Source of the DNA: Clostridia bacterium
Lineage (GTDB): Bacteria; Bacillota_A; Clostridia; Christensenellales; Aristaeellaceae
Direction of reading: 5' to 3'
Assembly: GCA_017464225.1 (NCBI GenBank)
Contig: JAFUDW010000108.1
Location: 1 to 25,800, forward strand
Length of the DNA: 25,800 nucleotides
Positions 1 through 25,800 of the stretch are shown here, piece by piece. The notes under the pieces were generated by a model that made no database searches, was not told where the DNA came from, and saw nothing but the letters and a program-made list of their open reading frames with translations. Within the stretch, counting starts at the first letter, position 1, and the number at the start of each line of letters is the position of its first letter. The translations under genes and the position numbers were made by a program.

Positions 1-410
1 AGGCCAGTGCCGACAGATTGGAGCAAGCTCCATCTGTCGTCCCTTGCCTTTTTCGGGATTGCTGCGCAATCCTCGGCCCGCTGCGCGTGCCTACCTCAGA
101 CTGGGGCTTTGGATTAAAGTTTTCAACGCTTTACCTTGCACCGGAAATGACGGCGGCTTGCCGACGTCAATGACGCGATAGCGTCATAGCCGCATAAACA
201 AAACGGCTGGATCGAGCTTGCTCGAATCCAGTCGTGTTTGTGTTGCGGCGTATTTCCGGAGCGCTCTTTGCGGCAACCCCACTTCAATCAACTGCGGGAA
301 GTTGCCTGTTTATGGCGCTAAGTAATATCCGCAACTGGCGGGTTCAGGGAGGCACTGCCTCCCTGGCAGGGTTTTTAAGGGGCGGCGCCCCTTAACGTTC
401 CCCTCCCTCA
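1..410 (-). repeat. Intergenic modular hairpin-repeat element, copy A (cut by window start)
   Basis: This gene-free stretch is a reverse-oriented copy of the element seen complete at 13385-13940. Read on the minus strand from 410 down, it has four parts. First, terminal hairpin 1 (TTAAGGGGC at 375-383 with GCCCCTTAA at 387-395) and terminal hairpin 2 (CAGGGAGGC at 345-353 with GCCTCCCTG at 357-365). Second, a conserved segment whose reverse complement is TTCCCGCAGTTGATT (about 287-301). Third, a multi-stem module between ATTTCCGG (252-259) and GCACCGGAAAT (138-148). Fourth, part of a second module (GTCTGAGG arm at 94-101, GGATTG/CAATCC hairpin at 56-72) that runs off the window. It begins about 40 bp after the stop codon of the minus-strand SDR gene. 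Small ORFs inside it are not convincing. No hairpin is followed by a proper T-run, so it is not a set of ordinary terminators. Confidence 0.8.
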
Positions 411-448
411 TCTGCCAACTCTGGTTTATACAATGATTAGAAAAGTCG

Positions 449-8269: not shown

Positions 8270-8640
8270 AGGGAAGGGGAGAGCGCTTTGCCCCGCGCTC
8301 GGAAGCCAAGCCCATAAAGCTTAATCGCTTTTTAAGGCCAGCTTTGAAAATGAAATAAGATAAAGCGATCTCCGCGTCCGGGGTCAGCCCGCACAGCGGG
8401 CTGAGACTTGCAAAGCAAGTCCGAAAAAGCAGTTGCCCGGCCGATGATGCTTGCATCGATTGGGCGGGAGACGGCTTTTTCACAGCCCCGGACGCGCTCT
8501 TTGCGCCAACCTCAAACCAACCTGGCGGAAACAACATGGAAGAACACGCCAACACAGTTCGCCCGTTGCTTCTTTGCAGCTTTCTTCTCAGAAGAAAGCG
8601 CGTAATCCCCCTCTTTCTTCCTCTTTGCTATACCAATAAA
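8270..8640 (+). repeat. Intergenic hairpin-repeat element, partial copy B
   Basis: The 385-bp gap between the MocA and isomerase genes contains the second module of the repeat family (8374-8495) plus its right flank, but not the first module. The right flank shares CTGGCGGAAA and GTTCGCCCG words with 13820-13880. The left part has its own hairpins: GAGCGC (8281-8286) with GCGCTC (8295-8300), and an ATCGCTTT/AAAGCGAT pairing further right. Near 8580-8600 a GCTTTCTTCT/AGAAGAAAGC hairpin takes the place of the terminal hairpins. The short ORFs here overlap these structures and are not credible genes. No promoter for the downstream gene was clear. Confidence 0.7.
8374..8495 (+). other. Structured module 2 of the repeat family (copy B)
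   Basis: A closing stem GCGTCCGGGG (8374-8383) with CCCCGGACGC (8486-8495) encloses three structures: TCAGCCCG/CGGGCTGA (8384-8391/8397-8404), GACTTG/CAAGTC (8405-8410/8416-8421) and a long arm GAAAAAGC/GCTTTTTC (8423-8430/8474-8481). The arm is topped by CCGAT-GATGC-TT-GCATC-ATTGG-type pairings. The equivalents at 13687-13804 have different sequences in the first three stems but the same pairing. It could be a structured RNA or a DNA cruciform; no family is recognised. Confidence 0.6.
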
Positions 8641-9410: not shown

Positions 9411-9417
9411 AAAAAAC

Positions 9418-9456
9418 ATCCGCGCAAAGGGCTGCCCAAGCGCCCTTTGCGCGGAT
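9418..9456. terminator. Intrinsic terminator between convergent isomerase and lysR genes
   Basis: A stem of 15 bp pairs ATCCGCGCAAAGGGC (9418-9432) with GCCCTTTGCGCGGAT (9442-9456). The A-run at 9409-9416 gives a T-run on the minus strand, so it serves the lysR gene best. On the plus strand the tail is weak. Confidence 0.8.
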
Positions 9457-9472
9457 CATACCGTTGATCGGA

Positions 9473-13375: not shown

Positions 13376-13527
13376 GAGAAGAGGGGGAGGGGAACGTTAA
13401 GGGGCGCTGCCCCTTATAATCCCTGCCAGGGAGGGAGGCCTCCCTGGACCTGCCAGCAGCGGATGTTGCTTACATATTCTTTCCAGCAACTTCCCGCAGT
13501 TGATTGAAATGGGTTGGCGCAAAGCGC

Positions 13528-13652
13528 GCACCGGAAATACGCCGCAACACAAAAACGACTGGAAACGAGCAAGCTCGATCCAGCCGTTTTGCTTATGCGG
13601 CTATGACGCTGATGCGTCATTGACGTCGGCAAGCCGCCGTCATTTCCGGTGC
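13528..13652 (+). other. Structured module 1 of the repeat family (copy C), multi-branch fold
   Basis: An outer stem, GCACCGGAAAT (13528-13538) with ATTTCCGGTGC (13642-13652), encloses three hairpins. They are a long arm GCCGCA...TGCGGC (13541-13546/13596-13601) capped by CGAGC-AA-GCTCG (13566-13577); TGACGC-TGAT-GCGTCA (13604-13619, counting the closing bases); and GACG/CGTC with inner CGGC-AA-GCCG (13622-13641). This is a four-way junction. Copies at 138-261 (reverse) and 20380-20503 share the plan with compensatory changes. It has no tRNA landmarks. Confidence 0.6.
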
Positions 13653-13686
13653 AGGTAGCGTATCGAAAATTTTCTAACAAGCCCAA

Positions 13687-13804
13687 GTCTGAGGTCGGTA
13701 CGCGGAGCGGGCCGAGGATTGCGCAGCAATCCCGAAAAAGCAGGCGGGCGGCTGATTGAGCTTGCTCAAATCAGACGACAGACGGCTTTTTCATTGCCTC
13801 AGAC
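13687..13804 (+). other. Structured module 2 of the repeat family (copy C)
   Basis: The outer stem is GTCTGAGG (13687-13694) with CCTCAGAC (13797-13804). Inside are GGATTG/CAATCC (13716-13721/13727-13732), then GAAAAAGC/GCTTTTTC (13734-13741/13785-13792) enclosing CTGATT...AATCAG with a GAGC-TT-GCTC cap. Compare 8374-8495, which keeps the pairing with other bases. Confidence 0.6.
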
Positions 13805-13971
13805 GGCCTTAATACGTCAGCCCTTCCAACTTAACTGGCGGAAATTGCTTTATAGTGTCATCAAGCTTGTTCGCCCGATGAGGTCCAGGAGGCGAAGTCT
13901 CCTGGCGCGGGTTTGGGCCGCGGAGGCCCAACGTTTCCAACGTCTCTAACGTCTCTTATCAGTTAAAAATT

Positions 13972-20226: not shown

Positions 20227-20379
20227 CCGAAGAGGGAGGGGACGTTAAGGGGCGCTGCCCCTTAAAAGCCCCGCCAGGTTGGGAAGCCCCACCCTGGACC
20301 CGGCTGCGGCAGATGTTACTTGGCGTCGTAAACAAGCGGCTTCCCGCAGTTGATTGGAAAAGGGGTTGTCGCAAAGAGC

Positions 20380-20503
20380 GCCCCGGAAATACGCGATCAA
20401 CAAAAAATACGCAGACTTGAGCAAGCTCAGTCTGCGATTTTTGTATGATCGTTATGACGCTGTCGCGCCATTGACGTCGGCAAGCCGCCGTCATTTCCGG
20501 TGC
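20380..20503 (+). other. Structured module 1 of the repeat family (copy D)
   Basis: The outer stem is CCCCGGAAAT (20381-20390) with ATTTCCGG (20493-20500). Long arm: CGATCA (20394-20399) with TGATCG (20446-20451), ACAAAAA with TTTTTGT, GCAGACT (20411-20417) with AGTCTGC (20429-20435), cap GAGC-AA-GCTC. Copy C has GCCGCA/TGCGGC and CTGGA/TCCAG at the same places, so both partners changed together. The 3' part TTGACGTCGGCAAGCCGCCG is identical in all three copies. Confidence 0.6.
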
Positions 20504-20645
20504 GGGTAACATATCATTTTTTTACAACTGATGAATGTTTGTTAAAGACCCTATGTCCTGCGGGACGCTGGATGGCACAGAAGGGGAAAACGTCGCCAAG
20601 TTATTGATACGTCACGCGACTTTTAACAGTTCAATTTCCACTGCG

Positions 20646-20719
20646 TGTCATTCTGAGCAGGCGTGCCAAGCAGCGCGGCACGCCGTCCGCGAAGAATCTT
20701 TTCGCCGGGAAGGGTGACA
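20646..20719 (+). repeat. TCATTCTGAGC...GAAGAATC type dyad repeat
   Basis: TGTCATTCTGAGC (from 20646) and GAAGAATCTT (about 20691-20700), closed by TGACA (20715-20719), enclose an 8-bp stem GGCGTGCC (20660-20667) with GGCACGCC (20677-20684). I recall similar 'TCATTCTGAGC / GAAGAATC' dyads from intergenic regions of many unrelated bacteria; their function is unsettled. Here it sits inside repeat copy D. Confidence 0.6.
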
Positions 20720-20794
20720 GAGGGGCTTTCAGCGTAGAGCGGGCCGGAAGGCCCCGGCCGCGGAGGCCCTTATCGTTCCCCCTATTTCTATCTA

Positions 20795-25564: not shown

Positions 25565-25589
25565 TCCCCGCCTTCGGGCGGGGATTTTT
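25565..25589 (+). terminator. Intrinsic terminator of glgC-glgD
   Basis: TCCCCGCC (25565-25572), TTCG tetraloop, GGCGGGGA (25577-25584), then TTTTT (25585-25589). A textbook Rho-independent terminator. Confidence 0.95.
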
Positions 25590-25622
25590 AATGGCGGTTT
25601 GAAGGAGGGAAACAAAGAGGTG

Positions 25623-25660
25623 GGGGAACGATAAGGGCCTCCGCGGCCCTTATGATCCCG
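25623..25660 (+). repeat. Isolated terminal hairpin of the repeat family (copy E, cut off)
   Basis: GGGGGAACGATAAGGGCC...GGCCCTTAT repeats the terminal hairpin 1 of the repeat family; the inverted form is at 20756-20785. Stem ATAAGGGCC (25631-25639) pairs with GGCCCTTAT (25645-25653). It points away from glgD in the same sense as the other copies. After ATCCCGC the usual second hairpin is missing and different, AT-rich DNA begins. Confidence 0.65.
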
Positions 25661-25661
25661 C

Positions 25662-25800
25662 GGGGGCTGTTGCACTAACAAAAAGTGCAGCAGCCTCTTT
25701 TACATTAGAAAAAGAGAGAAATAGAGACCAATATCTTTCACATAACCATGGAAAATGGGCATACAAATAAGACTGTCATGATTTTGGATTGGACTTTTCC
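25662..25800 (+). mobile_element. Possible insertion-sequence edge (AT-rich, partial)
   Basis: GGCTGTTGCACT (25665-25676) pairs with AGTGCAGCAGCC (25684-25695) over a 7-bp loop. From there the base composition drops sharply, to about one third GC by eye. GGGGCTGTTGCAC-like ends remind me of some transposon termini. An ATG at 25748 opens a frame to the window end (17 codons), with no clear ribosome site. Alternatively the hairpin is a terminator, since TCTTTTAC follows. Nothing in view proves a transposase. Confidence 0.35.

Follow-up and report, generated by a model that had tools for sequence, protein, structure and literature searches.

What kind of element do the five hairpin-rich intergenic regions of one stretch of clostridial DNA represent, and are they versions of a single element at all? 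The stretch, called the window here, comprises 25,800 nt of contig JAFUDW010000108.1 (Clostridia bacterium, assembly GCA_017464225.1), has a GC content of 60.7% and carries ordinary bacterial genes. Among the 10 window proteins scanned, GlgC and GlgD pass the NCBIfam cut-offs and no transposase was found among the families matched. A protein 99% identical to GlgD is encoded on other contigs, and among the best 120 of 4667 matches, which include relatives at 75-92% identity, the closest that carry an organism name, 'Clostridia bacterium', reach 78% and 75%; the host is therefore regarded as belonging to the uncultured Clostridia. An earlier note on this DNA had proposed that the five regions share words, order and fold, forming one family of modular intergenic elements of about 555 bp.

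Interspersed repeats built of hairpins have been described in several bacteria. BOX elements, modular sequences of 67-637 bp that fold into stem-loops, are enriched in the gaps between convergent genes. They have been reported to carry inverted repeats at their ends, with target duplications, and those of Streptococcus suis to have alternative end modules (PMC3049150). The REP/BIME sequences, including the GTAG- and CGTC-tagged ones, are palindromic units placed mostly downstream of genes and often arranged as inverted dimers, a REP being a single hairpin of 20-40 bp (PMC3733652). A survey of human microbiomes describes 3161 candidate structured RNAs, 250 of them palindromic (PMC8040213), and the modules described below might be listed among these candidates.

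The five regions, designated A to E, and their parts are as follows.

1-412, minus strand: copy A, cut by the window edge
387-403, minus strand: terminal word of A (motif match with up to 3 mismatches)
138-301, minus strand: module 1 of A, from alignments
about 1-105, minus strand: module 2 of A, 5′ part only, from alignments
8270-8640, plus strand: copy B, module 2 only, paired region at about 8376-8493
8494-8509: inverted TTGGCGCAAAGAGCGC behind module 2 of B
13385-13940, plus strand: copy C, the sole copy seen end to end with both modules
13389-13447, plus strand: 5′ terminal word (13389-13405) and hairpins of C
about 13397-13416, plus strand: hairpin HP1 of C
about 13426-13447, plus strand: hairpin HP2 of C
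13490-13652, plus strand: module 1 of C, TTCCCGCAGTTGATT followed by a stem closing on three branches
13687-13804, plus strand: module 2 of C, a stem closing on three branches
13916-13938, minus strand: 3′ end of C, GGCCGCGGAGGCCC common to the end of D, the remainder degenerate
20235-20790, plus strand: copy D, 5′ hairpins and module 1 as in C, with another 3′ half
20340-20503, plus strand: module 1 of D
20646-20699, plus strand: second repeat motif in D, TGTCATTCTGAGC-N30-GCGAAGAATCT
20756-20782, minus strand: 3′ terminal hairpin of D, equal to E over 27 nt
25622-25648, plus strand: E, a solo terminal hairpin downstream of glgD

Comparison of the five regions by blastn showed that they are related part by part. 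Copy A, when reversed, is 84.7% identical to C over 405 nt (E about 1e-123). The similarity of D to A (79.6% over 280 nt) and to C (76.2% over 307 nt) covers the 5′ hairpins and module 1 only, that of B to C (69.0% over 158 nt, E about 1e-13) covers module 2 and a short tail, and that of A to B extends over 54 nt of module 2 (75.9%); the 3′ end of D and E are identical in 27 of 27 nt. The B-C alignment scores 59, where none of 300 base shuffles exceeds 19; past module 2 the similarity of these two copies is weak, its score being equalled or exceeded in 25 of 1000 base shuffles. With up to 2 mismatches TTCCCGCAGTTGATT has three matches in the window, in copies A, C and D, where 0.02 are expected; with up to 3 mismatches the terminal word GGGGAACGWTAAGGGSC has five (expected 0.22), in A, in C, at both ends of D and in E. 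D carries this word at both ends, in inverted arrangement, and in A and C it stands at the 5′ end; as to MITE-like terminal inverted repeats beyond D, the 3′ end of C is degenerate, B is devoid of the word and the other end of A lies outside the window. A search for MITE-like target-site duplications of at least 4 nt, in flanks of about 25-40 nt, gave none at C and one 4-nt word at D.

The branched module 1 with its 5′ hairpins is thus common to A, C and D, and the branched module 2 to A, B and C. Neither TTCCCGCAGTTGATT nor module 1 was found in B, and module 2 is absent from D, which leaves C and the cut copy A as the only ones with both modules together. The 3′ half of D resembles C or A, read on the same strand, only weakly if at all, and it has no convincing relation to the others: its same-strand score is reached by base shuffles in 4 of 300 cases for C, 2 of 300 for A and 79 of 300 for B, and its score in the reversed orientation in 56, 223 and 12 of 300, respectively. 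The sequence TTGGCGCAAAGAGCGC, a module 1 word in A, C and D, is found in B in inverted orientation after module 2, perhaps a remnant left by recombination between modules. The repeat is real, and it is a mosaic. A single 555-bp element in five copies was rejected, since in B, D and E the modules are separated from one another; what was found is separable modules in differing combinations at different sites, as in BOX-like modular repeats. Of the plan put forward in the earlier note, the family relation and the shared words are borne out, but no one plan is common to all five.

Copy D contains in addition a motif of another kind. The pattern TGTCATTCTGAGC-N30-GCGAAGAATCT has one match in the window and is therefore absent in that form from A, B, C and E. 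Of 100 genomes drawn from another phylum, the one to which the Chitinivibrionales MAG behind the database match L001 (see below) belongs, nine contain it and none contains its reversed-pattern control. We take this hairpin motif to be widespread in bacteria; a literature search by sequence words returned no title about it or about repeats among the matches listed. It is short and separate from the repeats described here, although one copy of it lies inside D, and since it is found also in another phylum, D combines two or more repeat families.

The copies were then considered as RNA folds. Each whole copy folds more stably than 100 of 100 dinucleotide shuffles, with z values of -8.1 (C), -5.3 (D), -6.1 (A) and -7.4 (B). 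A scan in 120-nt slices, which cut the modules, gave a contrast weaker than the whole-copy figures: over 14 element slices and 201 others the mean z was -1.73 versus -0.43 on the plus strand and -1.28 versus -0.38 on the minus strand, and values below -3.5 were reached by 2 of 14 versus 3 of 201 and by 1 of 14 versus 4 of 201 slices, respectively. In the RNAalifold predictions each module is a stem that closes on three branches, the longest branch of module 2 being itself interrupted; the modules are branched structures of about 120-165 nt. Stems inside both modules are flanked by A and T tracts. By eye, several hairpin tips in A to D are palindromic around GCAAGC or GCTTGC; of these, GAGCAAGCTC and CGGCAAGCCG are common to A, C and D and GAGCTTGCTC to A and C, with ATGCTTGCAT found in B.

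Base pairing is kept in the modules while the sequence drifts. In module 1, compared among A, C and D, eight of the 46 predicted pairs carry a change in both partners. Pairing is kept in 132 of 137 cells, the five failures including one A-C. None of 500 shuffles was as high in cells paired, double changes or covariation score, and the number of further pair types is unremarkable (reached by 109 of 500 shuffles). Module 2, compared between B and C, has 43 pairs with 10 changed on both sides, three on one side and none broken, all 86 cells being paired, a result reached by 2 of 500 shuffles. When the 3′ partner was slid by 1-3 columns, 31-50% of cells remained paired, with 0-2 double-change pairs. 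HP1 and HP2 together add 27 predicted pairs, three of them changed on both sides. Since the structures were derived from the same three (module 1) or two (module 2) sequences on which they were judged, the percentage of pairing is inflated and the double changes are the stronger evidence.

Covariation of this kind could reflect a functional RNA or the hairpins of the DNA itself, and the two strands were compared. Eight pieces were folded both ways, and G-U pairs number 20 among 367 for the element strand and 17 among 365 for its complement. The whole-copy energies of the two strands are -183/-191 (A), -153/-162 (B), -254/-255 (C) and -233/-218 (D). In three of three copies it is the opposite strand that gives the more stable module 1, and the element strand is more stable for module 2 in two of two and for the 5′ hairpins in three of three. 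As neither energy nor G-U content differs consistently between the strands, there is no consistent sign that one of them acts as a functional RNA. The double changes are clustered: eight are adjacent where 4.4 are expected (p 0.018 in 20,000 placements, with positions entered by hand). Template switching has been reported to generate perfect stems and to keep them up (PMC8794818), and the clustering is the pattern that it would leave; the same pattern could arise from variable helices. Compensatory change therefore speaks for hairpins and not, taken alone, for a selected RNA, and the data are explained equally well by template switching, by hairpins at the DNA level or by selection on RNA. The repeats resemble the template-switch-maintained hairpins of that report in their multibase compensatory changes and in pairing that is not lost, and differ from them in that the report concerns a mutational mechanism and not a repeat family (PMC8794818).

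A scan for terminators gave little excess (15 versus 11.8, s.d. 3.0, and 18 versus 12.6, s.d. 4.2). Its sites in the copies are all small (344-366, 355-369 and 94-106 in A, 8565-8580 in B and 13647-13665 in C) and none of them corresponds to a branch of module 1 or 2, and terminator arrays were rejected as a description of the repeats. Copy E is flanked by two terminator-like hairpins, at 25565-25584 and 25662-25698.

Two reading frames across module 1, searched as proteins, gave no homologue. The antisense open reading frame of C, used as a protein query, gave no candidate sharing three words, and the aligned sense-strand frame of A, C and D gave 180 candidates that share words, none reaching E 10. 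Hidden coding is rejected for these two frames, in keeping with the earlier statement that the copies encode nothing credible. A known Rfam RNA is likewise rejected: release 15 gave no match in the whole window at gathering threshold, and at loose thresholds two matches for copy C and two for the window, all far below the gathering scores and those of the window outside the copies. The comparison with Rfam that the earlier note had called for thus agrees with its view of an unnamed family.

Copies were also sought in other collections, by pattern scans that demand exact words, so that a diverged copy would be missed, and by alignment. An exact 23-base gapped pattern had one match in the species genome contigs (84,980 species), the stretch L001, judged to be due to chance as only 15 nt are similar. 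Five of six patterns had no match in the IMG/VR viral contigs, and the four stretches matched by the sixth were judged chance, only 21-23 nt matching the copies and one of them, L003, lying inside a predicted gene (the overlap with predicted genes refers to L003 only). Host proteins used as queries gave no relative in the viral contigs. Blastn of C, D and B against phages and plasmids, and of A against plasmids only, found no copy, one Streptomyces stretch with an E value of 0.5 being judged chance. The earlier note had named the possibility that similarity vanishes outside this window; it does so as far as the phage, plasmid, IMG/VR, species-genome and protein searches reach.

The position of the copies relative to genes was taken from a census of the gaps between 24 genes, some gene starts having been set by eye. 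Of 15 interior gaps of at least 20 nt, five are divergent, four convergent and six co-directional; repeats are held by two of the four convergent, one of the six co-directional and none of the five divergent gaps, numbers that are small and carry no statistical test. All three gaps longer than 200 nt are filled by repeats. The genes adjoining the copies differ from copy to copy, and a stop codon precedes all five, including A and E at the window edges. The combination of hairpin modules thus varies among five sites that each follow a stop codon, and the preference for gene 3′ ends and convergent gaps seen in known repeats is found here, in small numbers. Copies C and D take up nearly the whole gap between convergent genes, where either orientation puts one end behind a stop codon, so that only B is informative about orientation; B lies between co-directional genes in the orientation of its neighbours (one case) and also precedes the gene that comes next. 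In each of the two repeat-free convergent gaps, 2194-2275 and 9411-9472, a single hairpin, long and simple, can be seen by eye. The modular, hairpin-rich and intergenic nature attributed to these regions from the outset is supported.

The claim that the copies match no known family has to be divided. It holds at the level of sequence in the collections searched, including Rfam, and fails at the level of plan, since interspersed mosaic repeats already known are built in the same way, with hairpin modules that can be exchanged, lengths of up to several hundred bp and a place at gene 3′ ends. In Streptococcus pneumoniae and S. suis, BOX elements are likewise modular intergenic hairpin repeats with a preference for convergent gaps (PMC3049150). 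The modules described here differ in being multi-branched, in belonging to Clostridia and in a GC content of 61%, and they are likened to BOX by plan, not by boxA, boxB or boxC sequence; nor was a target duplication of the BOX kind or a repeated middle module seen. With REP/BIME they share palindromic units at the 3′ ends of genes (PMC3733652), and differ from REP in size and in branching, not being single short palindromes. CGTC words occur in module 1. Because their exchangeable hairpin modules, their terminal word, their position at gene 3′ ends and the absence of any recognisable gene agree with how BOX elements and REP mosaics are built, the copies are taken as a new family of that kind.

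On balance, and with somewhat more confidence than doubt, we favour the reading in which the copies form a family of modular, non-coding, BOX/BIME-like interspersed repeats, together with the spread and the two-way transcript tail proposed for them. The modules would spread through copying or through recombination, using machinery provided from elsewhere in the genome, in trans because they contain no transposase gene, and would survive where insertion harms least, between convergent genes and after stop codons. RNA polymerase entering from either side would give the transcript a compact tail of hairpins, by which it is ended or shielded and the two transcription units are kept apart, and the stems would be kept partly by template-switch mutation in the hairpins themselves. 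We infer both the spread in trans and the two-way separation of transcripts from the arrangement of modules and genes.

A selected structured RNA, present as 3′-UTR or stand-alone domains whose fold is kept on one strand, with the copies as paralogous RNA genes that might, for example, protect mRNA ends or bind a protein, is in our opinion unlikely. Compensatory changes in two independent modules, without a broken pair in module 2, strong whole-copy folds and the orientation of B with its co-directional neighbours (one case) would all suit it. Energies and G-U counts have no consistent strand bias, though, the modules occur apart from one another in B, D and E, there is no Rfam relative, and the clustered double changes fit template switching too (PMC8794818). 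We are similarly doubtful that the copies are native bidirectional gene ends, that is, long compound terminators that do not move, trade segments through gene conversion and retain their stems owing to template-switch mutation. Nearly full convergent gaps at C and D, the long simple hairpin in each repeat-free convergent gap (by eye) and the A and T tracts around module stems speak for such gene ends; against them stand the module branches, not picked by the terminator scan, the place of B between co-directional genes, and E, which follows a terminator-like hairpin. A and C, moreover, are 85% identical yet lie behind different genes, which requires recent copying. It is hardly credible that the copies are an artefact of chance similarity or assembly duplication: GC-rich hairpins can give spurious short matches, but the identities here are 69-85% over 158-405 nt with E values of about 1e-13 to 1e-123, and the genes next to the copies differ.

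A family of interspersed repeats, the reading preferred here, can be extended to a broader proposal to which we give a low probability: that large, multi-branched, exchangeable modules specific to a lineage fill most long gaps in a clade of uncultured Clostridia, act as two-way separators of convergent genes and have their stems kept by selection and template switching together. The finding would gain in interest from a genome with hundreds of branched, covarying copies. If true genome-wide, it would add a large, branched and covarying example to the modular interspersed repeats, and such repeats could be mistaken for non-coding RNAs in term-seq and RNA-family surveys of gut Clostridia. It would also provide a test of selection on RNA versus template-switch mutation as the source of compensatory change in bacterial intergenic hairpins, because with many copies and both strands comparable the two could be told apart.
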